This document shows positions 8,109-36,851 of a stretch of 56,749 nucleotides of DNA, one piece after another; within the stretch, counting starts at the first letter, position 1; each line of letters starts with the position of its first letter. Below the pieces are notes generated by a model. The model was given only the letters and a program-made list of their open reading frames with translations. It searched no databases and was not told where the DNA came from. The stretch is from Actinomycetes bacterium. Lineage in GTDB: Bacteria; Actinomycetota; Acidimicrobiia; Acidimicrobiales; Poriferisodalaceae. The stretch covers positions 1 to 56,749 of the forward strand of contig JAAETH010000637.1 in NCBI GenBank assembly GCA_024228575.1. The letters are read 5' to 3'. A program made the position numbers and the translations under genes.

Positions 8109-9080
8109 CTAGCGGGTCCACGAGGCGGCCGTGAATGCGCCCATGCCGGAACGATCGACGATCGCCCGATCACCATGTGAGGTCGGTGATCGCAACGATG
8201 CCACACGATGCTCGAGCCATTGCGCCTGCGTGGTGAGTTGAGGCCGGCCCGGAAGCTGATCGAACGGCACATCGCACGTGATGTCGGCACCACCCTCGGC
8301 GGTATCTGCGATGTTCACGCGGCGCTGCCCACGGTAGAAACGCAACCAGCCTCGCTCCGGACGGGTCGCCAACTCCGAGGTCGTCGCGCCATAGTCGAAC
8401 AGAATCATGCGTCCACCAGACGAGAGTCTGTCGAGCGCTGCCCAGGTCCACGCAACAGCCCGGTCCGCCAAGGGGAACTCGGTGCCGACATCGACGAGGC
8501 GCCCATGGTGTGAGGCCCGATGGAGGTCGTTGCCCCCGAGGGCAACCCAGTGTTCGGTGTCGGGCCGCACGGGATCGACGTATAACTCCTCGAACCGGTC
8601 GAGCGTCACCCTTCGAATTACTCGAACCGCCAGATTGTCGAGAAGCTCGTTCGCCAGGATGAGGTGCACCTTGTTGCCCGCGCCGATCTGTCGAATGTCG
8701 GTGACGTAGCTGACGCGCTCGTCGATCAACAGCCCGGCCCGGTCGAGGCGCACGATCGCGGTGTCGCGCAGCGCCTGCGAGATCTCGAGCATCACCCAGT
8801 GAACGGCTCTGACGGCTTCGGAGTCCGCAGCAAGACAGTGAAGAGCGAGGGTTCCGACACCAGACCCCCCTTCGACGAGATCCAGGCGTTCGGGTCGACC
8901 GAGCGCCTCCCAAACCGATTCGATCTCGACGACGACAGCCTCGGCAAACGATGTTGATGCCTCAACAGCGGTGACAAAATCGCGCATCAGCCCGGCAGCA
9001 CCACCACGTTGATAAAAACCACGCCGACCGTACAGCACTTCGTGTTGGAACCGGTCGAAACGTACCGGCGCGGAGCTCAC
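8109..9080 (-). CDS. SAM-dependent methyltransferase, MidA/NDUFAF7-like family
   Basis: A 323-residue protein resembling the COG1565 methyltransferases. FYQRGGAAGLMRDFVTA near residues 22-38 is the family entry motif. LVEGGSGVGTLAL (68-80) is the SAM-binding loop, EISQALRDTA follows, and LANELLDNLAVR matches the conserved N-E-x-x-D segment. In mitochondria NDUFAF7/MidA methylates an arginine of NDUFS2 (NuoD) and is needed to assemble complex I. The GTG start at 9080 is 13 nt after the nuoN1 stop, so it is probably the last gene of the nuo1 operon, which fits an assembly role. Its actual substrate is inferred. Confidence 0.8.
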   Translation of the reverse strand: MSSAPVRFDRFQHEVLYGRRGFYQRGGAAGLMRDFVTAVEASTSFAEAVVVEIESVWEALGRPERLDLVEGGSGVGTLALHCLAADSEAVRAVHWVMLEISQALRDTAIVRLDRAGLLIDERVSYVTDIRQIGAGNKVHLILANELLDNLAVRVIRRVTLDRFEELYVDPVRPDTEHWVALGGNDLHRASHHGRLVDVGTEFPLADRAVAWTWAALDRLSSGGRMILFDYGATTSELATRPERGWLRFYRGQRRVNIADTAEGGADITCDVPFDQLPGRPQLTTQAQWLEHRVASLRSPTSHGDRAIVDRSGMGAFTAASWTR

Positions 9081-9093
9081 TGCGGGTTGCGCG

Positions 9094-10584
9094 TCAAAGA
9101 GCCAGCGACGTGGAGATGTCGCCGAAGCGTGCTGCCCACTGGGGATAGATGCCGAACGCCAGGGTTGCGATGATCGTCAGGACTATCGCGGCCTTGAGGG
9201 CACGAGACACGGTGAAGTGAGGTTCGGTGACCTCTGGGGCGTCACTCATCCACATCTCGCGCATGATCCGGCCGTAGTACCCGAACGCGATGACAGCATT
9301 GACCGCCACAACAACAGCCAGGAGTGAACCCTGGGGTGAGGAGGCATCGAGCAGGGCGTTCCAGATGAGGAACTTGGCGAACCAGCCACTGACCGGCGGG
9401 ATACCCGCGAGACCGGCCAGGAACACGGTCATGGCAACCGCCAGGCCAGGCGAACGGTGGAAGAGACCCGAGTAGGACGAGATCTCACCGCTGTTGGTCC
9501 TGGCGGCCACCGCCAGCACGACGGCGAAGGCGCCGAGGTTCATGAAGACATAGATGATGAGGTAGGTCACCACCGCCTTGATGGACTGCTCTGGTGCATC
9601 ACCGACGACGGCAAACGGGGCGAGCATGAACCCGCCTTGGGCAACGCCGGAGTAGGCGAGCATTCGCACGATGTTCGTCTGGCGTAGCGCAAGCAGGTTG
9701 CCCACGGTCATGGTCAGGGCAGCCATGATCCAGAAGAACGGCTCGACCACGTCCTCGCGAGTGGGGAACGCCACATAGACCAGCTGCAACAAGGCAACAA
9801 AACCCGCCGCCTTCGACGCGACCGCTAGAAAGGCCGTGACCGGCGTTGGAGCACCCTCATAGGTGTCGGGCGCCCAGGTGTGGAACGGTACCGCCGAGAC
9901 CTTGAAGCTGAAACCGATCAGCACGAACAACACACCGAGGATGGCCATACCCGACGGGTCCGGACCGGCGAGAGCGACCCTGATGTCGTCGAAGGCGGTC
10001 GAGCCGGCCATACCGAACAGCAGCGACATGCCGTAGAGCATGATCGCCGAGGCGAAGACACCCATCAGGTAGTACTTGATGCTCGCCTCGTTCGAGGTGG
10101 CTCCGCCCTTGCGCCATCCGGCCAGCATGTAGGCCGGAATGGACAACAACTCGAGCGCCATGAACATCGTGATGAGGTCGCGCGACGACGCTAGGAGAAC
10201 CATGCCCAACAGTGATGAGAGCAACAACGAGTAGTACTCGTTCTCGTGGTAGTCGCCGTTGCGGATGTAGTCGACCGAAAGAAGCACGACCAGGTATCCG
10301 GCGATCAGGAACAGGGCCTTGAGCACCAGCGAGAGGTCGTCGATGACGTAGGCGCCACCGAACATCACCCTGTCGGTTCCGTCGACGGCCAGCGTCAGGA
10401 TCGGAATCAGTGTGGCCAAGAGTCCCGCACCGGCGAGTGTTGGCATCAGGGGTCGAATGCGTTCGGTCCAGATCAGATCGGCGAGCGTGATGAGGCTGCC
10501 GACGACCAGCAGGGTGAGTTCGGGCGCGATCGCGTGCCAGTCGATCGGTGGTCTCTCGAAGGCGAGCAGTGTGGCCAAGCTCAT
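9094..10584 (-). CDS. nuoN: NADH-quinone oxidoreductase subunit N (operon nuo1)
   Basis: A 496-residue membrane subunit of complex I, one of the three antiporter-like proton channels. It has about 14 hydrophobic helices. FMALELLSIPAYML carries the conserved glutamate of TM5, GFSFKVSAVPFHTWAPDTYEGAPTP is the lysine-bearing TM7-8 region, and MLAYSGVAQGGFML contains the TM10 signature. It starts 3 nt after nuoM1 and is followed by the MidA-like gene. It differs clearly from nuoN of the second operon, so the two are not a recent duplication. Confidence 0.96.
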   Translation of the reverse strand: MSLATLLAFERPPIDWHAIAPELTLLVVGSLITLADLIWTERIRPLMPTLAGAGLLATLIPILTLAVDGTDRVMFGGAYVIDDLSLVLKALFLIAGYLVVLLSVDYIRNGDYHENEYYSLLLSSLLGMVLLASSRDLITMFMALELLSIPAYMLAGWRKGGATSNEASIKYYLMGVFASAIMLYGMSLLFGMAGSTAFDDIRVALAGPDPSGMAILGVLFVLIGFSFKVSAVPFHTWAPDTYEGAPTPVTAFLAVASKAAGFVALLQLVYVAFPTREDVVEPFFWIMAALTMTVGNLLALRQTNIVRMLAYSGVAQGGFMLAPFAVVGDAPEQSIKAVVTYLIIYVFMNLGAFAVVLAVAARTNSGEISSYSGLFHRSPGLAVAMTVFLAGLAGIPPVSGWFAKFLIWNALLDASSPQGSLLAVVVAVNAVIAFGYYGRIMREMWMSDAPEVTEPHFTVSRALKAAIVLTIIATLAFGIYPQWAARFGDISTSLAL

Positions 10585-10587: not shown

Positions 10588-12126
10588 TCAGCCTCCGGTG
10601 GACTTGGCGACGATATCTGCGATGTTCACGACGGCGTCATCGGTCACCGAGAACAGCAGGTTCGGATAGACACCGAAGACGACGATGGCAAGGAGGAATG
10701 GAGTCCAGGCGATCCACTCGAACGTGCCCACATCGTCGATCTCGGTGTCGGCCCATTCCTCGCTGGGCTCGCCGAACGACGTGCGCTGATACATCCACAG
10801 CAGGTATCCGGCGGCCAGCACGGTGCCGAGTGCGGCGATGACCATATAGGTGCGGAACGTCTCGACGGGAAGGCCGTCGGCGGGCTGGTAGGCCGCGAGG
10901 ATGGCCGGGAACTCGCCCCAGAAACCTGCCAGGCCAGGCAGGCCGAGTGAAGCCATCGATGCAAAGCCGAGAATCCAACCCAGGCGGGGCGCCGACACGA
11001 GCAGACCGCCAAGGCGACTGATCTCGAGCGTGTGGTAGCGCTCCTTCACCGAACCTGCGATGAAGAAGAGCATGCCGGTGATGAGCCCGTGGGCGACCAT
11101 GCCGAACACGGCGGCATTCATACCAAAATCGGTGAGGGTCGAGATACCCAACATGACGTAGCCCATGTGGGCAACCGACGAGAACGCTATGAGGCGTTTC
11201 ATGTCGGTCTGGGCCAAGCAGCCGAGCGCGCCGTAGATGATGCCGATGACCGCCAGCAAGCCGATCCATGGGGCCCACTCGGCCGCCGCCTCTGGCAGGA
11301 TCGGGATGGCGATACGGATGAAGCCGTAGGTGCCGAGCTTCAACAGCACGGCGGCCAGGATGACCGAACCGACGGTTGGCGCCTGGGTGTGGGCGTCGGG
11401 CAACCAGGTGTGGAAGGGAAACATCGGCACCTTGATGCCGAACCCCATGAACATGCCTCCGAAGATCCAGATGGCCGTGGTGCTGTGGATGCCCGCCGCG
11501 GCCTCTGGGAGGATCCGCATGTCGAAGGTCTGAACATCGGACAAGAAGAACAGCGCCAGGAAGCTGAGGATCATCAGCGCCGAGCCGAACAGGGTGAAGA
11601 GGAAAAACTTGAGCGATGCGTACTTGCGCTCGGGGCCTCCCCACACACCGATGAGGAAGTACATCGGCAGCAGCACGACCTCGAAGAACACGAAGAAGAG
11701 GATGAGGTCGTGGGCGACGAACGTGCCGTTCATGCCGGTAGCGAGCACCAACAACAAGATGAGGAACGCCTTGGCATTGCCCGGCTCTGGAATGTGGTCC
11801 CAGCTGTAGATGATGCACAGCGGCACGACCACCAGCGACAGCATGAACATCGGCAACGACAGGCCGTCGAGAGCGATGATGTAGCGACTGTTGATGACAT
11901 CGATCCAGCTCTTGTCGACGACGAACTGGAGGGTTCCCGCGTTGTCGTAGTCGAATCGGGCGAGAATGAATACTCCCGCTATCAGTGCGGCAAGCGACGA
12001 CGCCAGAGCGATCAGCTTGTGAAGGTCCTCCTCTTCCTTGGGTATCGCCATCATGACGAGGGCACCCAGCAGCGGGAGGAATACGGCCAGGCTGATCAGC
12101 CAGGCGTTGGATCCTGTTGCTTCCAT
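10588..12126 (-). CDS. nuoM: NADH-quinone oxidoreductase subunit M (operon nuo1)
   Basis: A 512-residue antiporter-like proton-pumping subunit. FFEVVLLPMYFLIGVWGG holds the functional TM5 glutamate, GIKVPMFPFHTWLPDAHTQAP is the TM7-8 signature shared by all NuoM proteins, and IAFSSVAHMGYVML is the later helix motif. GGGAGAA lies upstream of ATG 12126. It lies 13 nt after nuoL1 and 3 nt before nuoN1. Confidence 0.97.
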   Translation of the reverse strand: MEATGSNAWLISLAVFLPLLGALVMMAIPKEEEDLHKLIALASSLAALIAGVFILARFDYDNAGTLQFVVDKSWIDVINSRYIIALDGLSLPMFMLSLVVVPLCIIYSWDHIPEPGNAKAFLILLLVLATGMNGTFVAHDLILFFVFFEVVLLPMYFLIGVWGGPERKYASLKFFLFTLFGSALMILSFLALFFLSDVQTFDMRILPEAAAGIHSTTAIWIFGGMFMGFGIKVPMFPFHTWLPDAHTQAPTVGSVILAAVLLKLGTYGFIRIAIPILPEAAAEWAPWIGLLAVIGIIYGALGCLAQTDMKRLIAFSSVAHMGYVMLGISTLTDFGMNAAVFGMVAHGLITGMLFFIAGSVKERYHTLEISRLGGLLVSAPRLGWILGFASMASLGLPGLAGFWGEFPAILAAYQPADGLPVETFRTYMVIAALGTVLAAGYLLWMYQRTSFGEPSEEWADTEIDDVGTFEWIAWTPFLLAIVVFGVYPNLLFSVTDDAVVNIADIVAKSTGG

Positions 12127-12139: not shown

Positions 12140-14383
12140 CTAGATGACGATCATGAAGATGATGGCCAGGACGGCTGTGGCGCCGAACAACAATGCGCCG
12201 TATCCCTGGACCTTTCCGGACTGGATCACACGAAGCCCCTCACCTGAAGCTCCGGCGGCGGTGCCAGCACCGTTCACGGCACCGTCGACAACCGCCTGAT
12301 CGATGTGGGTGTACACCCACTGACCGCCGTCGCGAGCCGACTCGCCCGCCGTGTCGACGATCTTGTCGAGAACGTTCTGGTTGAACCAGTACGCCGCCTT
12401 GGCCAGAGGCCACTTCACGAAGGCGACGATGACGTTCTCGTAGAGGTGATCGAGGTAGTACTTGTTCTCGAGGAGTGTCCGGCCCTTGCGGGCCAAGACG
12501 TTGCGCTCGGTCAACCCGTGCGGGCCCATGTTCTTCCAGAAGAACAGGTAGGTGACCACGGCTCCACCCACGGCGAGAGCCAGACCGACGAGAGCCATGA
12601 CCAGCGATGGATCGGGGTGGATGATGCCCAAGGGTCCGAGGAAGTTGGACGGTTCGGCATAGGTCTGAAGGCGATGAGCGAAACCATCGGCGCCGAATAC
12701 TTCGACGACCGGACCTGGCAGGTTGGCCAGACCGGCGAGAACGGCTCCCGCGGCCAAGATGATGAGCGGGATCGTGATGGCCTTGGGCGACTCGTGCGGC
12801 TCGGCGTGATGTTCCTCTGTGTGTGTTTCGACTGGATCGTGGCCGCCGCCGTGGTGGTGCAGCTCGCCCCGGAACTCGCCGTGGAACGTGTACCAGATGA
12901 CCCTCGTCATGTAGGCGGCCGTCATGGCGGCGACAGCACAACCGAAGATCAACATCAGCGGGTAGCCGTTCTGTTGGCCCTCGAGCGATCCGAGAAGGAT
13001 CTCGTCCTTGGACCAGAACCCGGCGAACGGGAAGATGCCCGCCAGGGCCAACGAACAGATCACAAACGTCCGGTAGGTCGTCGGCATGTGCTTCTTCAAG
13101 CCACCCATCTCTCGAATGTCGAAGGTGTGGCCGGCCGAGTGGCTGACCGAACCGGCGCCGAGGAACAGGCCCGCCTTGAACAGGGCGTGGGTGAACAGGT
13201 GGAAGACCGCCGCGGTCCAGGCGCCAACGCCGAGAGCCATGACCATGTAGCCAAGCTGCGACACCGTCGAGTAGGCGAGCACCTTCTTGATGTCCCATTG
13301 GACGAAGGCAAGCGCCGCTGCCATCAGGGCCGTGAAGCCACCGACAAGAGCCAACAAGTTGATCGACGACGTTTTTATGGCGAACCCTTCATAGAACACC
13401 GGATAGAGGCGAGCGATCATGTACACACCGGCAACGACCATGGTGGCCGCGTGGATGAGAGCCGAAACCGGGGTGGGGCCCGCCATGGCATCTGGCAACC
13501 AGGTGTGCAGCGGGAACTGACCCGACTTGGACATGGCGGCGGCAACCAGGCACGTGGCCGCGACAACAAGTAGGAAGTGGCGAACCAGACCGTGGGCGAT
13601 CATGTCGTTGATCGTGAAGATGTCGAACGTGCCCGTCGCGAAGAACAGGGTGACCATGCCGATCAGCAGGCCGATGTCGCCCACTCGGTTGGTGAGGAAG
13701 GCCTTGAGTGCAGCGTTGCTGTTCGCTCCGTCCTCCCACCAATGACCGATGAGTGCGAACGAACAGACACCGACGAGCTCCCAGCCAACGATCATCTGCA
13801 GGATGCTCGACGACAAGACGAAGAACAACATCGACGCCGTGAAGAGGCTGAGGAACGCGTAGTAGTGCACATAACGCCGGTCGCCGCGTACGTACTCGGA
13901 CGAGTAGATGTGGACCAGCAGGGCAACCGTCGAGACGACGACCAGCAGGATTGCCGAAAGACCGTCGACGTAGGTGCCAGCCTTGTGTTCGACACCACCG
14001 ATTTGCAGCCAGGTGATCTGTTCGATGACCGGATCGGCGACGACGGAACCGTGGTCGTCCTCTTCGGCAGCACCCAAGAGCGTTCCTGAACCGAGATCGC
14101 TGGACCCGAATCCGAGGCCTTCCTCGTGGGTGTCGGTCTCTTCTGAATGGCCCTCGTCCTCGACATGAACCTCTTCGGTGCCATGATCGGCGGCCGACGC
14201 AGCATCGTCGGTGCGGCTGATCCACTGCACGGCGATGACCAGCGACAGCACAAAGCTGACGCCTACCGCAGTGATTCCCACCCAATGGACGGCGGATCCG
14301 CCCTTGACCCTCTTGCCGAACAACAAGATGACAACAAAAGAGATCGCCGGCAGCAGCGGTACCAGATATGCGTTTTCGAGCAT
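12140..14383 (-). CDS. nuoL: NADH-quinone oxidoreductase subunit L (operon nuo1), with His/Glu-rich insertions
   Basis: A 747-residue membrane subunit, about 120 residues longer than the nuoL of the second operon (626). Core motifs are normal: GWELVGVCSFALIGHWW, SGQFPLHTWLPDAMAGPTPVSALIHAATMV, and FWSKDEILL. The extra length comes from an acidic, histidine-containing insert at about residues 57-120 between the first two membrane helices, a His-rich loop at 501-531 (HHHGGGH and EEHHAEPHE), and a longer C-terminal region. The C-terminal amphipathic helix and final membrane helix are present. It lies between nuoK1 and nuoM1. Confidence 0.95.
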   Translation of the reverse strand: MLENAYLVPLLPAISFVVILLFGKRVKGGSAVHWVGITAVGVSFVLSLVIAVQWISRTDDAASAADHGTEEVHVEDEGHSEETDTHEEGLGFGSSDLGSGTLLGAAEEDDHGSVVADPVIEQITWLQIGGVEHKAGTYVDGLSAILLVVVSTVALLVHIYSSEYVRGDRRYVHYYAFLSLFTASMLFFVLSSSILQMIVGWELVGVCSFALIGHWWEDGANSNAALKAFLTNRVGDIGLLIGMVTLFFATGTFDIFTINDMIAHGLVRHFLLVVAATCLVAAAMSKSGQFPLHTWLPDAMAGPTPVSALIHAATMVVAGVYMIARLYPVFYEGFAIKTSSINLLALVGGFTALMAAALAFVQWDIKKVLAYSTVSQLGYMVMALGVGAWTAAVFHLFTHALFKAGLFLGAGSVSHSAGHTFDIREMGGLKKHMPTTYRTFVICSLALAGIFPFAGFWSKDEILLGSLEGQQNGYPLMLIFGCAVAAMTAAYMTRVIWYTFHGEFRGELHHHGGGHDPVETHTEEHHAEPHESPKAITIPLIILAAGAVLAGLANLPGPVVEVFGADGFAHRLQTYAEPSNFLGPLGIIHPDPSLVMALVGLALAVGGAVVTYLFFWKNMGPHGLTERNVLARKGRTLLENKYYLDHLYENVIVAFVKWPLAKAAYWFNQNVLDKIVDTAGESARDGGQWVYTHIDQAVVDGAVNGAGTAAGASGEGLRVIQSGKVQGYGALLFGATAVLAIIFMIVI

Positions 14384-14393: not shown

Positions 14394-14693
14394 TCAGCCG
14401 CGCATCAAGTCGAGTTCGTCGACATTGATGCTGGCGCGGTTGCGATAGATGAGCAGGATGATGGCCAGGCCTACGGCGACCTCGGCGGCGGCTACAGCGA
14501 TGATGAACAAGGCGAATACCTGACCCGAGACGGCGTTGTGCAGATATCCGAAGGTGAGGAGGTTGATGTTGACCGCGTTGAGCATCAACTCGATCGACAT
14601 GAGGACCATGACGGCATTGCGCCGGGCTAGGACACCGTAGACCCCGGTGCAAAAGAGGAATGCACCGAGCAACAGGAACTGGTTCACCAGCAT
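14394..14693 (-). CDS. nuoK: NADH-quinone oxidoreductase subunit K (operon nuo1)
   Basis: A 99-residue, three-helix membrane subunit linking the quinone end to the antiporter-like subunits. The conserved glutamates of the proton path are visible in [11 protein letters not shown] (about residue 35) and [10 protein letters not shown] (about residue 70). Length is exactly typical. It starts 2 nt after the nuoJ1 stop and ends 10 nt before nuoL1. Confidence 0.96.
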
Positions 14694-14695: not shown

Positions 14696-15190
14696 TCAGT
14701 CCTTCCTGGCCAAGACGATTGCGCCGATGAGCGCTGCCAACAGGAGTACCGAGGCCGCCTCAAAGGCGATCAGATAGGTGCTGAAGATCTCGTCTCCCAC
14801 ATCGGCGGTCCGGAATACGACCGGATTCTCGGACAGCTCGTCCGAACCGAACTGGTCGAGTAGCGCCCAGGTGAGAGCACCAGCCAGAATGGCAGCCACC
14901 CCGAAAGCGACGGGCCACGATGTGGCGGTCAATGACTGAGTCTCGCCGCCAGGGGCCCTGGTGAGCATGACGCCGAACAAGAACAGCACCATGACGGCAC
15001 CGATATAGACCAGGAACTGGGTCGTCGCGACGAACTCGGCCGTCAGCAGTACGTAGAGGGCACCGAGACTGGCGAGCACCGCCACGAGGTACAAGGCGGC
15101 GTGCACGACGTTTCGGGTGGTGACCATCAAGACGGCACTGACGGCGGTGACCGTGGCGATGATCCCGAATGCGATGTTCTGAGCAATCAT
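14696..15190 (-). CDS. nuoJ: NADH-quinone oxidoreductase subunit J (operon nuo1)
   Basis: A 164-residue membrane subunit with five hydrophobic helices. [20 protein letters not shown] is the conserved TM3 with the flexible pi-bulge region. The ATG at 15190 overlaps the nuoI1 stop codon (ATGA), a sign of translational coupling, so the much longer open frame upstream is not used. Confidence 0.95.
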
Positions 15191-15723
15191 CAGCGCGGCA
15201 CCTTCTTGACCTTGACTTCGGCGCCGTCCTCGTAGGGCTCGAAATCGGGAACGGTCTCGAACCACTCGGTCAGGCGCCGCTTGTCGTGGAGCAAGTCGGC
15301 GATGTGTGGCTCGCAGTACTCGTACTCGGGCGACCAGAACAAGGCAGCGAAGGGACAGACCTCGACACAGATGCCGCAGTACATACACAACGAGTAGTCG
15401 ATGTCGAAACGGTCGAGCTTGTTGACGCTACGGGCCTTGCCGCCGGCACGCCGGGGCGGTGCCTTGACCTTGTGGCCCTCGATGTAGATACACCAGTCGG
15501 GGCAGCTGCGGCTGCACAACATACAAGCGGTGCACTTCTCCTCGACAAGGCTGATGACCCCACGCGACCGCGGAGCTGGTTCGTCCTTCTCGTGTGGGTA
15601 CTGCACCGTCACCGAACCCTTCACGGGCGATGGTGGCCTCTTGAGTCCGTTGGGGAACATGGTGCGCATCGCTGTGCGCGCCGTGACCCTGAGGCCCTTC
15701 ACGTATCCGGAGATGCCTGCCAT
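15190..15723 (-). CDS. nuoI: NADH-quinone oxidoreductase subunit I (operon nuo1)
   Basis: A 177-residue ferredoxin-like subunit carrying clusters N6a and N6b, which pass electrons from the peripheral arm to NuoB. Both CxxCxxCxxxCP motifs are intact: [12 protein letters not shown] and [12 protein letters not shown]. The linker between them is longer and more basic than usual ([14 protein letters not shown]). The C-terminus ends in a charged, lysine-rich tail. The start [10 protein letters not shown] at 15723 overlaps the nuoH1 stop by one base. Confidence 0.95.
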
Positions 15724-16760
15724 CAGAAAGCCACCTTGAACACGCCGGTGAACACGATGTTGGCCAGGGCAGCCGGGATGAGCAGCTTCCAGGCGAACTT
15801 CTGGAGCTGATCTTCGCGCAACCGTGGGTAGGTGAATCGGACCCAGAAGATGATCATGGACAAGAACAGGATCTTGGCGAGCATGACGCCCGGTCCGACG
15901 ATGTTCAGCCAATTGGCTGTCGGGTCGACGAACGGAAGTGACCATCCGCCGAGGAACAGCACCGAAGCGATCGATGCAAAAGCAAATGCTGTACCGAACT
16001 CGGCCATGAAGAACAGCAGGAACCGAAACCCCGTGTACTCGATGTGGAAACCACCAACCAGTTCGGTCTCGGCCACCGGCATGTCGAACGGGGTCTGGGT
16101 CAGCTCGGCCTGGGCGGCGACCATGAAGATCGCGAAACCGATGCCCTGGGTGACGATGAAGGGCATGCCAGATCCGATGCCGAAGATCTCCCAATTCGCT
16201 TGAGCGTGAACGATGCCCTGAAGCGACAGGGTCTCGGCCTGGATGACAACACCCACAACAGCGAGTACCAAGGGCAACTCGTAGGCGATGAGCTGGCCAG
16301 CTGCACGCAGGCCTCCGAGGAGGGCGTACTTGTTGGCCGATGCCCAGCCGGCCATCAACACACCAAGCGCAGAAAGTGAGGACACCGCCATGGCGTAGAA
16401 GATGCCGGTATCGAGGTCCTCGACCACAAGATCGGGACCCACGGGCAAGACCACATAGAGGAGGAAGGTCGACATCAACACGATGATCGGTGCCAGCGCG
16501 AAGACGTGTTTGTCGGCGTTGTCGGGATGGATGTCTTCCTTCTGGAGGAACTTGAGGGCCTCGGCGATGAGCTGGAGCGAACCGTGAGGACCCGCCTCCA
16601 TGGGGCCGAGACGGCTCTGCATAAAAGCCATCATCTTGAACAAGAAGACGTACACGAGGATCAGCGAGGTGAGAGGGATGATCAACATGACCACGGCGAG
16701 CTTGATCGCCGTGGATACGGCGTAGTCCGAAAAGATCCAGAAGCTGAGATCGGCGATCAT
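15723..16760 (-). CDS. nuoH: NADH-quinone oxidoreductase subunit H (operon nuo1)
   Basis: A 345-residue membrane subunit that forms the quinone entry channel with NuoB and NuoD. It shows eight hydrophobic helices, the [11 protein letters not shown] loop, [18 protein letters not shown], and the acidic loop [20 protein letters not shown] typical of NuoH. ATG 16760 overlaps the nuoD1 stop codon (ATGA). Confidence 0.96.
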
Positions 16761-17929
16761 CGATCTATGTCTCCGAGAACGAAGTAGAGCGAGCCGAGGA
16801 TCGTGATGACGTCGGGCACAAAAACGCCGCGCAGCACCCACGAAACAATCGCGATGTTGTTGAACGACGGTGTTCGGATCTTGACCCTGAACGGTCCGAC
16901 GTCGCCCTTCGACACGATGTAGTAGCCCATCTCGCCGAGAGGGTTCTCTGTCGAGATGTAGGCCTCACCCGCTGGCACCTTGATGATGCGGGGCACCTTG
17001 GCCATGATCGGGCCGCTGGGCAGACCATCGAGCAGCTTGTCGACGATGAGTGTCGCCTCGCGGGTCTCCTGGAGTCGGACCCAGAAGCGGGCGAATGAGT
17101 CGCCGTCGGTATGGGTCCACACCTTCCAGTCGATCTGATCGTATGGAAGCGGCGAGTCGACATCGCGGCGTAGATCCCAGTCGACACCCGATGCACGAAG
17201 GTTGGCTCCAGAGAGGCCATAGCCGAGCGCCACATCGGTCGGAATGACACCGATGCCACGGCAGCGCGCCTGGAAGACCGGGTTGCCCAACAACAGATCC
17301 TCGACCTCGTCACAGAAGTTCCGCATGGTCTCCATGCAGTCCTTGGTCTCGGCGATCCAACCCTTGGGTAGGTCGTCCTTGAGACCACCGATACGGTCGA
17401 AGTTCGGGTGGAACCGACCGCCCGTGACCGCCTCGATCTGGTTCAACACACGCTCGCGGTCGCGGAAGGCGAAGAAGACGGGAGTGAGAGCACCAAGCTG
17501 TACACCCATGTCGCCGAGGAACAACGAGATGTTCGCGATGCGAGACATCTCGAACAGGATCGTCCTGATCCACTGGGCCCTCGGCGGAGCCTCGACTTCC
17601 ATCAACCTCTCGGCTGCAAGAACGAAGGGCACCTCGTTGGCGAAGTTGCCGACCCAGTCGATGCGGTTGACCAGGGTTGTGATCTGCCGGTAGGTGCGAA
17701 CCTCGGTGAGCTTCTCGTAGCCGCGATGCATGTACCCGGGAATCGGGTCGGCCTTGACGACCAGCTCTCCGTCGAGCTGGGTGGCGATGCGCAGTGTGCC
17801 GTGGGTGGCCGGGTGCTGTGGGCCGATGTTGAGGATCATGTCGCCCGTGTCGAGCTCGACGTTGACCCGCGCTTCGGCCGCCTGGGAAGCGACGTAGGCG
17901 TGCCGTTGTTGATCTGAGGTAGCGGTCAT
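16757..17929 (-). CDS. nuoD: NADH-quinone oxidoreductase subunit D (operon nuo1)
   Basis: A 390-residue 49-kDa-type subunit that forms the quinone site with NuoB and is homologous to [NiFe] hydrogenase large subunits without the metal site. The quinone-binding histidine region appears as [12 protein letters not shown] near residues 36-47, followed by [12 protein letters not shown] and NRIDWVGNF. The C-terminus ends LGDIDR. It lacks the nickel-binding cysteine motifs, so it is not a hydrogenase. Its start overlaps the nuoC1 stop. A neighbouring MidA-like methyltransferase could modify it. Confidence 0.96.
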
Positions 17930-18630
17930 GCCCCGCCTTCCTCGGCCTCAAAGGCAGCCATGACTTCGGCTTCGAGTTGTGCCTCGAGATGTTCTGGGAT
18001 CTCCTCCATGTCGACGATGCCTGGCCACGGTTTCACGACCCTGGCGAGCAGGGGATAGTCCTTGCGCAACGGGTGACCTTCGAAACCGCTGGGAAGGTAG
18101 AGATTCCGCAACCGGGGGTGGCCGGCGAATGTGACACCAAACATCTCCCACGCCTCACGCTCGTGCCAGTCGGCGCCCGGATAGACGCCGGTCCAGGTGC
18201 CGATCGTCATCGAGTCGTCGATGTCGGCTTTGAGCGTCACACCCAAACCTTCTGTGATCGAATGAACCCGGGCGAAAGCCTGGAAACGGGTGTCGCCGCC
18301 GGCCACTCCAGTGGCTTCGGGAACGCTCGAGATCGATTCGCCGTCATCGCCGGTATCGAAGTCGGCGTCCTCGTAGCGACCCTCGGGAGCGATAGCCCAG
18401 TCGATGATGGAGAGGAAGCCGAAGTAGGCGAAGTCCATGGTGTGAAGCGCCCGAGCGGCATCCTGCCATCGATTGCCGTCGACCCTGACCCACACGTCGG
18501 CTCCCGGTTGGACATGACTCTCGACCACACCGTCGCCAAGGACCTCGGTGAGGCGCTCGACCACACTGTCGCGGGCCTCGTCGGCTAGTACTTCTGCGGG
18601 AGTGTCGTTGTCTGTGGTCTCGTCGGCCAC
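17926..18630 (-). CDS. nuoC: NADH-quinone oxidoreductase subunit C (operon nuo1)
   Basis: A 234-residue 30-kDa-type peripheral subunit that scaffolds NuoD and NuoI. The signature WHEREAWEMFGVTFAGHPRLRNLYLP and the following GHPLRKDYPL are clear. It is about 70 residues longer than the copy in the second operon because of an acidic N-terminal extension and an inserted acidic loop around residues 75-95. GTG 18630 is 7 nt after nuoB1; its stop overlaps the nuoD1 start (ATGA). Confidence 0.95.
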   Translation of the reverse strand: MADETTDNDTPAEVLADEARDSVVERLTEVLGDGVVESHVQPGADVWVRVDGNRWQDAARALHTMDFAYFGFLSIIDWAIAPEGRYEDADFDTGDDGESISSVPEATGVAGGDTRFQAFARVHSITEGLGVTLKADIDDSMTIGTWTGVYPGADWHEREAWEMFGVTFAGHPRLRNLYLPSGFEGHPLRKDYPLLARVVKPWPGIVDMEEIPEHLEAQLEAEVMAAFEAEEGGA

Positions 18631-18637: not shown

Positions 18638-19126
18638 TCACTCGGCGACGACGATGGGATCGCCGCGCCACTTCTCGCCCATGTCTTCGTTGAGAATGCG
18701 GTCCTGCAACATCACGAAACCCTCGAGTAGGGCCTCGGGCCGCGGGGGGCACCCGGGAACATAGACGTCTACGGGAATGATCTGGTCGACTCCCTTGGTA
18801 ACCGAGTAGCTATCCCAGTAGGGACCCCCACTGTTCGAACATGACCCCATCGAGATGACGTACTTGGGTTCGGGCATCTGTTCGTAGAGACGCAGGACGA
18901 CCGGTGCCATCTTGTCGGTGACGGTGCCGGCGACGACAAGGAGGTCCGCCTGACGGGGACTGGCTGGAAAGGGGATGATTCCCAGACGCATGGCGTCGTA
19001 GCGCGGCGAGCCGATTGCGGCACCCATCTCGATAGCGCAGCAGGCAAGACCCCACTGGTACATCCACATGGACCGCGAGCGCCCGAAGTTGAGCAACTTC
19101 TGGAGGGGGCCCTTCGCGAGGCCCAT
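18638..19126 (-). CDS. nuoB: NADH-quinone oxidoreductase subunit B (operon nuo1)
   Basis: A 162-residue subunit holding cluster N2, the last electron carrier before quinone. The four ligand cysteines are in [20 protein letters not shown] and [10 protein letters not shown] chose ATG 19126 because it follows the nuoA1 stop by 5 nt with a GGTGGG ribosome site. An ATG 12 codons upstream (19162) would overlap nuoA1 by 31 nt and has no ribosome site. The family typically starts with a short helix like [13 protein letters not shown]. Confidence 0.95.
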
Positions 19127-19131
19127 CTCTA

Positions 19132-19497
19132 CTAAGCCCACCGAAGTACTCCCTTGCGCCATGCGTAGCCGAGGCCGAGAGCGAGGATGGCGATGAAGAT
19201 ACCCATCTCGACCAGTCCGAACAGGCCGTAGTCCTCCAGCTGGATGGCCCACGGGAAGATGAAGACCGCCTCGACATCAAACACAACAAACAGAACGGCG
19301 AAGACGTAGTAGCGGACCTGACTCTGGACCCATTCGCTGCCGGAAGGGTCTACACCGGACTCGTAGGCGATGAGTTTCTGGCGCGTGGGTCGGGTCGGAC
19401 GCAAGAAACGGGCGAGCCCGAGCATGACGGCCACCATGCCCACGGCAGCGACGCCGAAGAGGGCAACAACTAGATAGCTACGGACGAGTTCGGACAC
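19132..19497 (-). CDS. nuoA: NADH-quinone oxidoreductase subunit A (operon nuo1)
   Basis: A 121-residue membrane subunit with three helices. YESGVDP is the conserved first loop (usually YECG; here the cysteine is replaced by serine), and [22 protein letters not shown] is TM2. GTG 19497 ([11 protein letters not shown]) gives the usual family length; the longer open frame upstream runs antisense to the serine hydrolase. It is the first gene of nuo1, with a promoter expected in the 135 bp shared with the divergent serine hydrolase. No nuoE, F or G follows. Confidence 0.93.
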
Positions 19498-20681: not shown

Positions 20682-21725
20682 TCAACAGATGCGGGGAAGT
20701 TGCTCGCCGAGGGGACGGTCGACCACATAGGTCGAACCGAGGGCGGTCCTCGCGATCACCATGCCGGGGCGTCGTTCGACCATCTCACCGATCGAGCTCG
20801 CCTCGGCACCTTCTGGACGTGATCTCATCACTTCGAGCACTGCCTCGGCCCGATCTGCCTCTACCACCCCTACAAGCACACCTTCGTTGGCTACATGTAG
20901 TGCGTCGAGACCCAACATCTCGCACGCGCCGCGCACCTGTGGCGGCACCGGAACCACCTCGGCGTCAAACTCGACCCCAAGGCCGGCATCTGTCGCGATC
21001 TCGTACAGGACCCCGGCCAATCCCCCACGGGTTGCATCGCGAAGACACCGGACTCCGCCGACTTCGAGCATCGCGGCAACCAGTCCGGCAAGGGGGGCAC
21101 AGTCGGACTCGATTGTTGTTTCGAACTCGAGCCCTTCTCGAAGACTCATCACGGCGACACCATGCCGGCCGATCGGCCCGCTGACGATCACAACATCGCC
21201 CGACTCGACCTGAGTCGGCCCGAGTTCGACCCCGTCGGGGATGAACCCCACACCAGAAGTTGTGATGTACATGCCGTCGGCGCGACCCAGCTCGACGACC
21301 TTGGTGTCGCCCGCAACCAGTTCGACATCGGCGATGGTCGCGGCGTGCCCCATCGCCGTCGCCACCAGACCCAATACCTCGAGATCGAGGCCCTCCTCGA
21401 GCACAAAGGCCGTCGACAACGCAAGAGGCACGGCCCCCACCATGGCCAGATCGTTCACCGTTCCGTTGATCGCGAGATCGCCGATACAGCCGCCCGGGAA
21501 GAACAGGGGATGAACCACGAAGCTGTCCGTTGTGAACGCGAGCCGGCCCTCCCCCAGGTCGAGAACTGCGGAGTCGAGTCCGTTCGCCTCGGCTGCCGCG
21601 CCGCCAAAGGCGGGGATGAACAGATGGTCGACCAACTCCGATGTCAGGAGACCTCCTCCGCCGTGGGCCAATGTCACGCGCGGGTGATCACGCAACGGCA
21701 GTGGGCAGCTCCAGCCGTCAACCAC
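20682..21725 (-). CDS. hypE: Hydrogenase maturation protein HypE
   Basis: A 347-residue ATP-dependent dehydratase that converts the thiocarbamate on its C-terminal cysteine into thiocyanate, the source of the cyanide ligands of the [NiFe] site. HGGGG near the N-terminus, the [17 protein letters not shown] block, and the terminal PRIC with the acceptor cysteine are intact. GTG 21725 overlaps the hypD stop by 8 nt. It is the last gene of the hydrogenase operon and ends 14 nt from the convergent serine hydrolase. Confidence 0.95.
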
Positions 21726-22818
21726 CCGACACCCCCGCGGGGCGATAACGGAAGTAGGCAGCGCAAGCCCCTTCGCTCGACACCATCGGCGCACCGAGCG
21801 GGCGACGAGGTGTGCACCCGATGCCGAACGCCGGACACTCGTTGGGTTTGATGATCCCCTGGAGTACTTCGCCCGCCCTACAGTCGGGCGACTCGGGTAC
21901 GTTCAGTTCGGGGACATCAAAACGAACCTCGGCGTCGAAGTCGCGAAAGGTCTCGGTCAGGCGCCAACCGCTGGCCGGCAGTTCACCCATACCGCGCCAG
22001 GCCCGATCACAGGGCTCGAACACACGGTCGAGCAGATCTCTGGCCACCCGATTCCCCTCAGGCTTGACCATCCTCGTGTAGGCGTTCTCGACCCGCGCTT
22101 CACCGGCCTCGAGCTGAACCACAGCGCGCCGAATACCTTCGAGAAGGTCGAGCGCCTCAAAACCCGTCACGACGATCGGTACGTTGAAACGTTCGACCAA
22201 GGGTTCGTACTGTGTCGTGCCCATCACGGTACATACGTGACCAGCAGCGAGGAAGGCGTCTATCTGGTTGGTCGGGCTGGAAGCGATAGCAGCGATGGCC
22301 GGCGGAACGAGCACATGGCTGACGAGCACCGAAAAGTTCGTGATGCCGCGCGATCGAGCGGTCTCGATAGCCATCGCATTGGCCGGTGCCGTGGTTTCGA
22401 ACCCGACACCAAAAAAGACGATCTCACTATCGGGAAGCTCCTCGGCGAGTTTCAAGGCATCCATCGGCGAGTACACGACCCTGACGTCGGCCCCCTCGCT
22501 CCGCTTTCTCATCAGATCGGATTCGGTCGCCGGCACGCGCAACATGTCGCCAAATGTGCAGAACACAACTCCGGGCAACGAGGCAATATGGAGTGCAGCC
22601 TCGATCATCGAGATCGGGGTCACACACACCGGGCACCCCGGACCGTGGACCAGGCGGATCTCCTCTGGCAACAGCTGGTCGAGCCCGTTTCGCACGATCG
22701 AGTGAGTCTGCCCACCACACACCTCCATCAGCGACCACGGTCGGGTGGTCACCCGCCCGATGCCTGTCAGGAGACGGCGGGCCAGATCGGCGTCGCGAAA
22801 TGTTTCGGGACCGCTCAC
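21718..22818 (-). CDS. hypD: Hydrogenase maturation protein HypD
   Basis: A 366-residue iron-sulfur protein that, with HypC, carries the Fe(CN)2CO unit during assembly. Conserved motifs are [38 protein letters not shown] and the [4Fe-4S] cysteines of the C-terminal domain in [21 protein letters not shown] with IGCTP. GTG 22818 overlaps the hypC stop as GTGA. Length is typical. Confidence 0.96.
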
Positions 22819-23075
22819 CTTGCACCCTTCGCGCCTCGGTCGGCGACATCGATCTCGTCGATCTCGCGCAACAGGGCAAGGGTCTCGCCGGCCGCTTCCT
22901 CGTCAACAACCGCTATTGCGAACCCCGCGTGCACCAAGACATATTCACCAATCTGGGCTTCGGGCAACAGGGCGAAACAGACATCCTTGCGAACACCCTC
23001 GACGTCGATGACACCAACAGCTGTGCCACGATCGTCACCCAACTCGACCAGCCGGCCGGGAACAGCCAGGCACAT
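22815..23075 (-). CDS. hypC: Hydrogenase maturation chaperone HypC
   Basis: An 86-residue HypC/HupF chaperone. The mature N-terminus begins with the essential cysteine in MCLAVPGRL, which binds the iron centre and later the large-subunit precursor. The conserved small barrel is followed by an acidic helix ([17 protein letters not shown]). ATG 23075 lies one base after the hypF stop, and the gene overlaps hypD. Confidence 0.96.
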
Positions 23076-23076
23076 A

Positions 23077-25359
23077 TCAGGACCTCCTCATGCTGCGCGC
23101 CGCAGCAATCCACGCCTGCCCCAGAGACAGGCCACCATCGTTGCTGGGCACGAGCCGATGGATCATCGGTTCGAACCCTGCATCCTCGAGCTTCGCCGAG
23201 CAGGACTGCGTGAGCAGAGCGTTCTGGAAGACACCTCCGACGAGAGCAACCCTGCTGATAGCACGGACCTTGTGAATCTGCTGAACAGCATCGACCACCA
23301 TTGAAGCCACGGTCTCGTGAAAACGCCAGGAAATCTCGGCTGGCGTTCGCCCTGCAGCCAGGTCCGAGACCACGGAACGAACAACAGGCCCGGCGTCGAT
23401 GACTCCATCGACCGTCTCAAACCGGTAGGGATGCTCACCTCCTCCGAGGGCGGAAAACTCGAGCAGGACAGGGCCCTGGGCCTCGTATGTGATCTCGTGA
23501 CACAGGTTGAGCAGCGAAGCCACAGCATCAAAAAGTCGGCCCATACTCGACGTCGGAACCGTTCCGATGCCGCTTTCCACCTGACGTTTCAGGAAGGTGA
23601 GTTCACCCTTGTCGAAGTACCTGACCGGCGCGAGGTCGTCGAGCAACTCGACACCCGCCGAGAGCAGGTGAGCTACCGCGGAGCGGGCGGGAACTCGAAC
23701 AGAGGCATCGCCACCTGGCAACGGGACATACCCCAGGTGGGCCATCCGCTCGAATCCGAACGCATCGGCGATCATGAACTCGCCGCCCCAGATCGCTCGG
23801 TCGCTTCCATAACCCGTTCCGTCAAATGCCACACCGATGATCGGCTCGTCCGGTTCCAGGCCCGCCTCGGCGGCCATGGCACACACATGGGCGTGATGAT
23901 GCTGGACCGTCTCGACACGAACGCCAGCAGTGTCCCCATAGGAGCGACCCCACCGAGAACCGTGATAGCCGGGATGGGCGTCAACGGCCACAACACCGGG
24001 CGACAACCGGTACATCTCGGCGAATTGTCGAACGCCCGCCGACAACACGTCGAGTGCATCGGGACTGTTCAGTTCACCGACATGTTGGCTGGTCCAGAAC
24101 CAATCACCCGACCCCACGGAGAAGGTGTTCTTCTGATCGGCACCGGCAGCGACAACGTCGTCGACCCGACCACACATCTTTGAGGGCACAGGCACCGGCA
24201 TGGGGGCATGGCCACGCCCACGCCTGATCGGCATCGCCGCGCCTGCGACAACCCGCACGACCGAATCGTCGGCAGGCGTGTGTATGGGTCGATCGTGGCC
24301 AAGGACGCCGTCGGCCAACATCAGCAGAGGGTCGAGATCGTCGCTGTGGAGAATGGGCTGGCCCGACAGGTTTGCGCTTGTCATGACCAGCGGCGGAGCA
24401 CCCGCAGCGAACAACAGATGGTGAACACCCGTGTATGGCAATAGCAGACCGACCAGGGGGTTTGCCGGCGCGACCGAGGGCGAGAGGTCGCTCGATTCGC
24501 GGCGCCCCACCAGAACGATCGGCCTCGCACACCCGCTCAACTCCTCGGCCTCGACGTCGTCGAGGTGGGCACGGGCCCTCGCCTCACCGAGCGACGCCAC
24601 CATGACCGCAAGTGCCTTGTCCGGGCGGTGTTTGCGACCGCGGAGCGAAGCGATCGCCAGATCGGAGCGAGCGTCGCACACGAGGTGGTAGCCACCGACA
24701 CCCTTGAGTGCGATCACTCCCCCGTGTCGCAATACATCAACTCCGAGTCCGAGAGCCTCGTCGCGTTCGGCGTCGGCTCCGGCGCTGTCGGCCCACCACA
24801 ACACCGGTCCGCACTCGTGACACGAGACGGGTTGGGCGTGAAAACGACGATCGAGTGGGTCCTCGTACTCGCGACGACAGGAGGGGCACATCTCGAAGTG
24901 CTCCATGGTGGTGTTCGGTCTGTCGTAGGGAAGGCTGCCGATGATGGTGAACCGTGGACCGCAGTCGGTGCAGGTGATGAACGGGTGCCGATAGCGGCGA
25001 TCCGACGGGTCAAACATCTCGTCCACACACGTATCGCACGTTGCCGCATCCGGCGGCACCAGGGTGGATGCACCCTCGGCCCGGCGGCTCTCGACGATGT
25101 GGAACCCGCTGGTATCGATCGGGTTCGTCACCGGTGTGCGGGTCAACGAGACCACCCTGGCAAGAGGAGGTGGTTCGTCGATGATCCGCTCCGCCAACCG
25201 ACAGACCGAGTCGGTCGATCCGACGACCTCGATGATGACCATCGTCGAGTCGTTCCACACCCGCCCCACCAGACCGAGGTCGTTGGCCAGACGAGCCACG
25301 AAGGGCCTGAACCCCACACCCTGCACCACCCCTGTCACTTCGATGCGTTCGGCATTCAC
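23077..25359 (-). CDS. hypF: Carbamoyltransferase HypF
   Basis: A 760-residue enzyme that makes carbamoyl-AMP from carbamoyl phosphate and ATP and transfers the carbamoyl group to HypE. Domains in order: acylphosphatase-like (VVQGVGFRPFVARLA, about residues 10-22); paired zinc fingers (CDTCVDEM, CTDCGPRF, CPSCRREY and CHECGPV, about 100-180); YrdC-like (KGVGGYHLVCDA, HRPDKALAVM); and Kae1-like (HHHAHVCAMAAE, FDGTGYGSD). All hallmark residues are present. GTG 25359 overlaps the protease stop codon as GTGA; the longer frame upstream is not HypF-like. Confidence 0.96.
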   Translation of the reverse strand: MNAERIEVTGVVQGVGFRPFVARLANDLGLVGRVWNDSTMVIIEVVGSTDSVCRLAERIIDEPPPLARVVSLTRTPVTNPIDTSGFHIVESRRAEGASTLVPPDAATCDTCVDEMFDPSDRRYRHPFITCTDCGPRFTIIGSLPYDRPNTTMEHFEMCPSCRREYEDPLDRRFHAQPVSCHECGPVLWWADSAGADAERDEALGLGVDVLRHGGVIALKGVGGYHLVCDARSDLAIASLRGRKHRPDKALAVMVASLGEARARAHLDDVEAEELSGCARPIVLVGRRESSDLSPSVAPANPLVGLLLPYTGVHHLLFAAGAPPLVMTSANLSGQPILHSDDLDPLLMLADGVLGHDRPIHTPADDSVVRVVAGAAMPIRRGRGHAPMPVPVPSKMCGRVDDVVAAGADQKNTFSVGSGDWFWTSQHVGELNSPDALDVLSAGVRQFAEMYRLSPGVVAVDAHPGYHGSRWGRSYGDTAGVRVETVQHHHAHVCAMAAEAGLEPDEPIIGVAFDGTGYGSDRAIWGGEFMIADAFGFERMAHLGYVPLPGGDASVRVPARSAVAHLLSAGVELLDDLAPVRYFDKGELTFLKRQVESGIGTVPTSSMGRLFDAVASLLNLCHEITYEAQGPVLLEFSALGGGEHPYRFETVDGVIDAGPVVRSVVSDLAAGRTPAEISWRFHETVASMVVDAVQQIHKVRAISRVALVGGVFQNALLTQSCSAKLEDAGFEPMIHRLVPSNDGGLSLGQAWIAAARSMRRS

Positions 25360-25820
25360 GAAGCAAACTCCTGGGCGAGTTTGTCGATGAGGGGGTCGAT
25401 AGCCGCCGAAACACTCGGGGTCAGCTCCTCGCCGAACGAGACATCGGCCCACTCGACGCCGTAGACAACCAGACGAGCGGGCATGACCTCCAGCACTTCG
25501 GCCAGGGCGACCGCCTCGGCCACGCCGGCTCCATGTGTGCTGTGCGAACCCATCCAGCCGGGCAGTCGATCGACACCCACCTCGACCCGATGAATCGATC
25601 CGGCCTCGCCGCCCGCCTTCATGGCGTCGACAATGACTACCAATGACCTGTCGCGCCAAACATCGACGAGTCGTGTCGGCTCTCCATCGAGTGATACGAG
25701 GTCAACACCCGGCCCGAGGCGGCCGGTCGAAACGAGCCTCTCGACCACCCGCAGCCCCAAGGCGTCGTCGGTTCGCATCGCAGCGCCCACCCCGATGACG
25801 GCGTCAGCCTCCTCGTTCAA
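25356..25820 (-). CDS. Hydrogenase maturation protease (M52, HycI/HybD-like)
   Basis: A 154-residue endopeptidase of the HycI/HybD family that removes the C-terminal tail of the large subunit after nickel insertion. The family start VIGVGAAMRTDDALGLRVVERL is present, as are an aspartate in VIVDAMKAG and a histidine in STHGAGVAEAV, matching the three nickel-sensing ligands of HybD (Glu/Asp, Asp, His). The TTG start at 25820 overlaps the large-subunit stop codon as TTGA; the in-frame region upstream lies inside the large subunit. Its target should be the neighbouring HyhL. Confidence 0.9.
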   Translation of the reverse strand: MNEEADAVIGVGAAMRTDDALGLRVVERLVSTGRLGPGVDLVSLDGEPTRLVDVWRDRSLVVIVDAMKAGGEAGSIHRVEVGVDRLPGWMGSHSTHGAGVAEAVALAEVLEVMPARLVVYGVEWADVSFGEELTPSVSAAIDPLIDKLAQEFAS

Positions 25821-27121
25821 CGCCGATCTACGGTCAGATCGAGGAAGTGTGTCGCACAGCTGATGCACGGATCGTGATTTCGAATGGTGACCTCGGCCCG
25901 TCGGCGCAGTTCGTCGTCGGGCATGTCGATGTTGTCCTCGACATAGTGGAACAGGTCGTGTTCGATGCTGGCCTGGCTCTGGGATGTGGGCGGGGTGATA
26001 ACGGCGCTGAGCACCGTGCCCCCCTCGTCGATCTCGTAGCGGTGATACAGCAGTCCTCGAGGAGCCTCGGTGACACCGTGGCCGATACCGGCTCTCGGCG
26101 CGACCGGCACCGCAGGCCGTTCTGGCGCCTCGTACCGATCGATGATGTCGATGGCGGTTGCGAAGGCGTGAACCACCTCGACGGCTCGCACGATGATGCT
26201 TCTGAACGGATTGCGGCACACGGGTTCGAGCCCGACCGCCCTCGCCACCTCACGCGCCGCCGGAGCCAGCAGCTCACCTCGCAGTGCATACCTCGCGAGC
26301 GGTCCGACCAGGTAGTTGCCCCTCTCGATGATGTGGGCGTGTAGTGCGGTCGAGTGTTCGACGTGTTCCTCGGCGATGTGATCGAGAAACTCGGCGACCG
26401 GGATGTCGAGTCCACGATCGGAAACAACACGCGACCCGAGGATTGGGTACCTATCGCCGTCGTCGGCCGACACGAGCTCGTGAGGAGACTCGAGATGCGG
26501 GAAATCAAAACCCGAGACCAACTCGACAACCTGGACCGAGAGTTCGAGACCGACCTCGAGCTTGGTCCTCAGATCGAGCAGCTCTCGCCGGGTCGGGGTC
26601 TTGTAGAACCCACCGACCTGCACATTGATCGGATGGATCGCCCTTCCACCGAGGACCTCGAGGATCTCATTGCCGATCTTCTTGATCTTCAGGCCCCGCT
26701 CGACCACGTCGCGGTGGTCCTTTGCCAGGTCGATGGCGCTGTCGTAGCCGAGGAAGTCTGGGGCGTGGAGCATGTGGATGTGCAGGGTGTGGCTCTCGAT
26801 CCACTCACCGCAGTACAGCAGCCGGCGCAGATCGAGCAGCGGGCCATCGACAGTGACCCCGATGGCATCCTCGATCGCGGCGCACGCACTCATCTGGTAG
26901 GCGACCGGGCAGATGCCACAGATGCGAGCGGTGATGTCGGGAGGCTCGGTGTAGCGCCTGCCGCGCAGGAATCCCTCGAAGAAACGGGGCGGCTCGTAGA
27001 TGTTCAGCTGGACATCCACGACATGACCATCCTCGATGCGAACGTGCATCGCCCCTTCACCCTCGACACGTGACAGCGCACCCGTGTCCAGCGTCCTGCT
27101 CCCAGATGCACGATGGGTCAC
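25817..27121 (-). CDS. hyhL: [NiFe] hydrogenase large (alpha) subunit, group 3b-type
   Basis: A 434-residue subunit carrying the Ni-Fe(CN)2CO site. The N-terminal cysteine motif is RICGIC at residues 66-71 and the C-terminal motif is DPCISCATH at 417-425. Only nine residues follow the histidine, giving a very short tail for the maturation protease to remove. Length and the order of neighbouring genes match NADP-linked sulfhydrogenase-type (group 3b) enzymes of archaea and many aerobic bacteria. GTG 27121 overlaps the small-subunit stop (GTGA). Confidence 0.94.
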
Positions 27122-29187: not shown

Positions 29188-29192
29188 CTGAC

Positions 29193-30344: not shown

Positions 30345-30390
30345 CCAGCAAGTCAACCAGGTTGGCTGGAAGGCCCGAAAGAGTCCTTCG

Positions 30391-35374: not shown

Positions 35375-35378
35375 GCTG

Positions 35379-35684
35379 CTATCCCTTCATCACGCTGAGG
35401 TCGTCGGCGGTCGCGCCGGGCGAGCGTCTGACTATGGCAACAACGATGCCCAGGCCGACCACCACTTCGGCGGCAGCGACCACCAGCACGAAGAACACGA
35501 CGGTCTGGCCGGCAACATCGCCGAGAATCCGAGAGAAAGCGACGAACGTCAGGTTGACGCCGTTGAGCATCAGCTCGACACACATCAACATCACGAGGGG
35601 GTTGCGGCGCAGCAACAACCCGATCCCTCCGATGATGAACAAGAGGGCACCCAGAACGAGGTACCAGCCTTCGGTGACCTCCAT
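35379..35684 (-). CDS. nuoK: NADH-quinone oxidoreductase subunit K (operon nuo2)
   Basis: A 101-residue, three-helix subunit. The conserved proton-path glutamates are in [11 protein letters not shown] and [10 protein letters not shown]. The start overlaps the nuoJ2 stop by one base (ATGA-type junction). Typical length. Confidence 0.96.
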
Positions 35685-36849: not shown

Positions 36850-36851
36850 GA

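Follow-up and report, generated by a model that had tools for sequence, protein, structure and literature searches.

We identified the gene at positions 8109-9080 (reverse strand) of the 56,749-nucleotide stretch of DNA analysed here (the window) as midA, which encodes an intact SAM-dependent methyltransferase of the MidA/NDUFAF7 family (COG1565, PF02636). Its family membership and predicted fold are confirmed, and its activity is predicted. The gene closes the operon nuo1, which encodes a complex I that lacks the NADH module. We propose, with a probability of roughly 0.8, that MidA methylates Arg69 of NuoD1, beside cluster N2, during assembly of this NADH-module-less complex. Judged from the genomes, the case for a link between MidA and NuoD1 is strong; catalysis, product and assembly effect are predictions.

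In the proposed mechanism, MidA would be expressed as the last product of the nuo1 operon and would bind newly made NuoD1. It would then methylate Arg69 of the HRGYE loop, which would lie beside N2 where NuoD meets NuoB. This step would precede or accompany the association of NuoD1 with NuoB1. By analogy with Arg85 of NDUFS2, the product is probably symmetric dimethylarginine. The modification may help NuoD1 to join NuoB1 and to seat N2. Our searches of the open-access literature turned up no data on methylation of an actinobacterial NuoD.

The nuo1 operon and its last gene

The nuo1 operon occupies one strand (reverse) upstream of midA and consists of nuoA1 (19132-19497; PF00507), nuoB1 (18638-19162; PF01058), nuoC1 (17926-18630; PF00329), nuoD1, the predicted MidA substrate (16757-17929; PF00346, motif HRGYEK), nuoH1 (15723-16760; PF00146, E 3.1e-98), nuoI1 (15190-15723; Fer4 domains and position), nuoJ1 (14696-15190; PF00499), nuoK1 (14394-14693; PF00420), nuoL1 (12140-14383; NF005141, 584.7 bits), nuoM1 (10588-12126; TIGR01972, 545.3 bits) and nuoN1 (9094-10584; TIGR01770, 386.5 bits). 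The starts of nuoA1, nuoB1, nuoH1, nuoI1 and nuoJ1 are inferred, those of nuoH1 and nuoJ1 with the list of start codons. As nuoE, nuoF and nuoG are absent, this is an 11-gene, NADH-module-less operon. The nuoN1 stop codon (9094-9096) is separated from the GTG start of midA by 13 nt (9081-9093), the spacing given in a preliminary description of this DNA made from its sequence. The same description had called the gene a MidA/NDUFAF7-type methyltransferase and the last gene of nuo1, an assignment upheld by PF02636, by the fold and by the conserved end of the block.

The midA reading frame is intact and encodes 323 amino acids. Its product scores 83.2 bits with PF02636 (E 2.5e-23), above the curated cut-off of 23.3, and no NCBIfam family matched at E 0.001. 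The top sequence match in the PDB is 5ztz, ‘NDUFAF7 homolog, mitochondrial’ (E 5.6e-10), which we take to be the Dictyostelium protein. An AlphaFold2 model built with 35 sequences has a mean pLDDT of 94.1 and a pTM of 0.92. The first six Foldseek matches and the first five VIA-align matches are all MidA/COG1565 structures; in VIA-align these score Z 28.2-31.0 over 298-313 aligned residues at an rmsd of 2.6-2.8, and the runner-up fold reaches a Z of 15.3.

No promoter-like site was found between 7900 and 9200, and the one terminator-like match in that interval lies inside midA; shuffled sequences give as many. We infer that nuo1 and midA form one transcription unit. The gene that follows midA encodes a ROK kinase and was re-found in 5 of 131 loci, which represent three genomes, two of them represented twice (many of the stretches searched extend only ~1.2 kb beyond midA). 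We rejected the ROK gene as a member of the conserved operon because it is not conserved; conservation of the nuo1 block ends with midA.

A second nuo operon, at 30391-45570, is complete, with 14 genes including nuoE, nuoF and nuoG. In the assembly (6.15 Mb in 960 contigs, 96.9% complete, 3.47% contaminated), PF02636 occurs once and nuoD twice, and all three genes lie in the window. The region between the two operons (20682-30356, reverse strand) carries hypE-, hypD- and hypF-like genes, the large and small subunits of a [NiFe]-hydrogenase, and Fe-S and cNMP-binding ORFs. NuoD1 and NuoD2 are 25.8 kb apart in the window and 14.8-30.9 kb apart in 28 genomes (>20 kb in 6), so the intervening stretch varies between relatives.

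The acceptor arginine and the NuoD/NuoB residue switch

NuoD1 reads GYMHRGYEK, and its Arg69 (codon 17723-17725, reverse strand) is the predicted methyl acceptor. NuoD2 of the 14-gene operon (42734-44038, reverse strand) reads GYLHTGMEK, with threonine at the same site (codon 43772-43774), and therefore could not be modified by MidA there. Within the window, the acceptor arginine is thus restricted to the complex whose operon has midA.

The partner subunit NuoB differs in a matching way. For NuoB, we place the switch at the residue of VAG[RT] that varies, an assignment made from the motif and from known sequences. NuoB1 has threonine here (VAGTV; codon 18923-18925, reverse strand) and would be the switch partner of NuoD1 Arg69; NuoB2 has arginine (VAGRV; codon 44858-44860, reverse strand), opposite the threonine of NuoD2. 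Among 108 distinct NuoD/NuoB pairs (122 before duplicate removal) from loci with both genes readable, 68 are Arg/Thr, 39 are Thr/Arg and one is Ser/Arg, with no mismatches. At locus L141 of genome G060, serine (HSGME) replaces threonine in a nuo2-type NuoD. Because its arginine sits in NuoB2, the 14-gene complex would be exempt from MidA.

The preliminary description had stated that NDUFAF7 methylates an arginine of NDUFS2; the residue is Arg85 (PMC3829151), and knock-down of NDUFAF7 in human cells lowers Arg85 methylation and impairs assembly (PMC3829151, PMC9006661, PMC8042128). Dimethylation of the HRGxE arginine is known from Paracoccus too, and Thermus has threonine in its place (PMC3750175, PMC8042128). 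In Thermus, R83 of NuoB fills the space of the missing NuoD arginine; Yarrowia has threonine at that NuoB position (PMC8042128). In Escherichia coli the HRGxE arginine is present and unmodified (PMC3750175), and we found no PF02636 match in an E. coli control genome.

Distribution of MidA and arginine-type NuoD

We surveyed 61 genomes of the order, including that of the window, and found PF02636 in 52 and PF00346 in 60. MidA adjoins NuoN1 in 49 of the 52 MidA-bearing genomes (a count that includes split contigs and genome G047, in which MidA is split in two), adjoins NuoN2 in one and lies at a contig end in two. Adjacency at this frequency excludes chance placement. The gaps between MidA and NuoN1 range from -157 to +546 nt, measured with inferred starts. 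In 33 of the 34 genomes with MidA and a nuo1-type NuoD on one contig, the two share a strand and MidA lies 7.7-9.0 kb downstream; in the remaining one, G052, it is placed between nuo2 and nuo1. The nuo1-type NuoD has arginine in all 51 readable cases (52 found, one cut off), and the nuo2-type has threonine in 38 and serine in one of 39 readable cases (40 of 61 matches fetched, one cut off).

Nine genomes of the order lack MidA. Three have a single, Thr-type NuoD (G044, G057, G058), two have a Thr-type NuoD and a distant homologue of ~100 bits reading HRG[IL]E (G051, G056), and one has no NuoD (G039). The remaining three (G001, G016, G027), which are 74-85% complete, have an Arg-type nuo1 NuoD. 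In G047 (L091, 714-1741), the two pieces of the midA frame lie beside an intact Arg-type NuoD1, reflecting either decay or an assembly error. The preliminary description had asked whether midA adjacency tracks 11-gene nuo operons in other genomes; across the order it tracks the operon lacking nuoE, nuoF and nuoG (EFG-less), and MidA is missing where the operon is missing.

A scan of GTDB contigs gave a similar picture. In the 80 of 474 confirmed loci that were inspected, which overlap the order survey and so are not independent of it, and which were retrieved with a search pattern derived from nuo-linked MidA, MidA follows NuoN1 within 700 nt in 67 and at 0.7-7.2 kb in seven, and there is no strong NuoN1 in six. 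NuoD1 has arginine in all 44 readable cases (two were not readable). Most of these 80 loci carry the title Acidimicrobiales, Acidimicrobiia, Ilumatobacter, Microthrix or simply Actinomycetota, and a few carry others.

Across 246 genomes of the class that are at least 90% complete, 186 have both MidA and the arginine motif, 41 have neither, 9 have the motif only and 10 have MidA only, counts that were tallied by reading listings and that rest on a pattern that also admits serine codons and matches outside complex I. Only 19 of the 246 are discordant (Fisher P 2e-28, ignoring kinship among the genomes), and two of the motif-only genomes (G288, G330) have motifs unlike the nuo1 type. Distances were compiled for 97 genomes with both, a set that omits at least five genomes of the order (G042, G045, G050, G054, G055). 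The two genes are on one contig in 74, always in the same orientation with MidA downstream, within 10.5 kb in 62 and at 10.6-57 kb in 12; they are on different contigs in the other 23.

At the level of the phylum, 62 of 197 genomes have MidA and 135 do not; kinship is ignored in these counts as well. An Arg-type NuoD is present in 60 of the 62, in 47 by the pattern GYMHRG[YAHF]E and in 13 by reading of the gene. The pattern GYMHRG[YAH]E is accompanied by MidA in 46 of 48 genomes, and GYMHRGFE in 1 of 14. The arginine pattern nevertheless also turns up where MidA is missing: 28 of 135 such genomes match it (13 of them with GYMHRGFE), and another six have HR[AS]FE. MidA thus nearly always implies an Arg-type NuoD, and the reverse does not hold. 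The order, class and phylum surveys rule out the pairing of MidA with NuoD1 as an oddity of a single MAG. We also rejected the apparent combination of MidA with a Thr-only NuoD in family f39, as a second NuoD, reading HRAAEK, had escaped the motif pattern; in G067, G107, G118, G129, G140 and G151 it is on the contig of MidA, 0.2-6.9 kb away.

Arg-type NuoD without MidA exists, and MidA is therefore not universally required. Some complexes of the MHR[GAS]FE group are Arg-type and EFG-less and have no MidA, and in one genome that is 98% complete (G198), with an Arg-type NuoD1 on a 4.8-kb contig, MidA was not found. The MHR[GAS]FE group and E. coli rule out a general requirement for MidA in complexes with the NuoD arginine. 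Loci L373-L378, L383 and L384, of the group with the NuoD motif MHR[GAS]FEK, have an Arg-type NuoD and no PF02636 gene, except in genome G099.

The preliminary description had suggested a bacterial version of the eukaryotic assembly step, which it called essential for complex I assembly, and had tied that step to the NADH-module-less complex. The assembly step is favoured by an acceptor arginine found only in NuoD1, by the NuoB switch and by the position of MidA near detached NuoD genes (below), but its essentiality cannot be assumed. The tie to the complex holds as an order-wide link with the operon. Mitochondrial and Paracoccus complexes I have an NADH module. Because the modified arginine is known from both (PMC3750175), what MidA is linked with is the Arg-type NuoD and not the absence of the module as such.

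Several genomes have separated NuoD from the rest of the operon. In ten large-genome or related actinobacteria (several of 7-10 Mb), MidA lies 0.9-7.9 kb from the arginine motif. We found no other nuo genes near the NuoD-MidA pair in the 12-20 kb examined at L315-L320, L332, L387 and L388, in searches in which the NuoI probe was NuoI2. On two shorter contigs, the pair has no other nuo gene (L321) or has a NuoC-like match ahead of NuoD (L322). In Nonomuraea gerenzanensis, MidA is ~3.5 kb from a NuoD reading HRGAE, with no other nuo match in 16.7 kb. Genome G083 (L382) has a nuo2 cluster with nuoB, nuoA, nuoC, nuoI, nuoH and nuoJ-N and no nuoD in 20 kb; it has two NuoH and two NuoD, and its Arg-type NuoD is beside MidA ~200 kb away. 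The NuoB of this nuo2 cluster has the threonine state of the switch.

That MidA lies near the detached NuoD and away from the remaining nuo genes points to NuoD as its partner. It also weighs against the alternative that the main substrate of MidA is something else, for example NuoB1, other proteins or nucleic acid, with the operon site serving co-expression only. DNA methylation by Wolbachia MidA produced in E. coli has been reported (PMC12455994), several families carry MidA away from nuo genes (none were found at the MidA loci of families f33 and f68: L324, L326, L328, L330), and the two exceptions among the 62 MidA-bearing genomes of the phylum (G148, G254) have a Thr-type NuoD only. With an Arg-type NuoD in the other 60 genomes, and with MidA lacking in the genomes of the order that lack nuo1, we consider a different main substrate unlikely.

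Conserved motifs of MidA

In the alignment of 35 sequences, G72, G74, G76, N144, E145, D148, D229 and Y230 are invariant, and E99 is at least 90% conserved. The window protein keeps the glycine-rich loop (G72/G74/G76), N144-E145-L-L-D148-N (NELLDN) and D229-Y230 (DY). We take the SAM site and active site to be formed by the glycine-rich loop, the acidic residue after strand 2, NE-x-x-D and DY. The invariance of the glycine-rich loop, NELLDNL and DY argues against a protein whose main role would be that of a chaperone or assembly factor binding NuoD1, with weak or dispensable methylation. Such a role would accord with the contact between Dictyostelium MidA and NDUFS2 in yeast two-hybrid assays (PMC3829151) and with the occurrence of Arg-type NuoD without MidA, but a methyltransferase-deficient Dictyostelium mutant fails to rescue (PMC9006661), and we regard it as quite improbable.

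The window MidA is among the more divergent copies (83 bits against PF02636, compared with up to 143 in relatives) and lacks a segment of ~20 residues near the C-terminus that is present in most relatives. Decay or inactivity of this one copy, in a family that otherwise behaves as described, is nonetheless very improbable given its full-length open frame, its conserved motifs, its confident and complete predicted fold, and a near relative (L134) with the same C-terminal shortening.

Relation to known systems and two complexes in one cell

The methylation reaction and the MidA family are already known. Human NDUFAF7 and Dictyostelium MidA belong to the same Pfam family and share the fold over the whole length (5zu0 and 5ztz, Z 30.8 and 30.5), and their target motif HRGxE is also present in NuoD1. 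Compared with these proteins, the window protein is 24% identical in the structural alignment, its gene is in an actinobacterial nuo operon, it faces a complex without an NADH module, and its methylation activity is predicted. COG1565 proteins of Proteobacteria (1zkd, 4f3n, 4g67) also have this fold (Z 28-31), and their PDB titles name no substrate. The origin of MidA has been described as alphaproteobacterial (PMC9006661) and its role in prokaryotes as only inferred in silico (PMC12455994).

The 11-gene nuo cluster of Candidatus Actinomarinales is likewise a second, EFG-less cluster near a complete one; the text covered of the report on it mentions neither MidA nor the NuoD arginine (PMC7771536). 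F420 has been proposed for Actinomarinales (PMC7771536), and candidate electron donors for the EFG-less complex include F420H2 and ferredoxin. In the window, the exchange of Arg and Thr affects the NuoD position known from the ‘intersubunit residue switch’ of Yarrowia and Thermus (PMC8042128), but both states occur in one genome, in paralogous complexes, and only the Arg-in-NuoD state comes with MidA. In the open-access papers listed by our searches, we saw no description of MidA as a standing part of the EFG-less nuo operon, of side-by-side Arg and Thr complexes in one genome or of the detached NuoD-MidA pair.

Methylation of NuoD1, as proposed, would make an EFG-less complex I of Actinomycetota a further likely carrier of this arginine modification. 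A cell that combines a single MidA with two complexes I, of which just one has the acceptor arginine, is a natural control. Mutants of Yarrowia left the role of the modification near cluster N2 undecided (PMC8042128); Ilumatobacter nonamiensis (L187), Nonomuraea and probably Streptomyces offer cultivable test beds for it.

More tentatively, and with odds well below even, MidA and the NuoD/NuoB switch may together act as a sorting lock in two-complex cells, with MidA licensing the NADH-independent complex separately. Methylated Arg69 would fit only the threonine of NuoB1, and the threonine of NuoD2 would need the arginine of NuoB2. If these fits are exclusive, the isoforms could not exchange their N2-bearing subunits. 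In genomes like G083, NuoD and MidA might form a two-gene unit acting in trans on a nuo cluster without nuoD.

The two NuoB types also differ at the site corresponding to the hydroxylated arginine of mammalian PSST, where NuoB2 reads FRASPRQ (44885-44905) and NuoB1 reads FPASPRQ (18950-18970). Among 80 distinct NuoB sequences, arginine is found at this site in 33 of 33 with the arginine state of the switch and in 0 of 47 with the threonine state.
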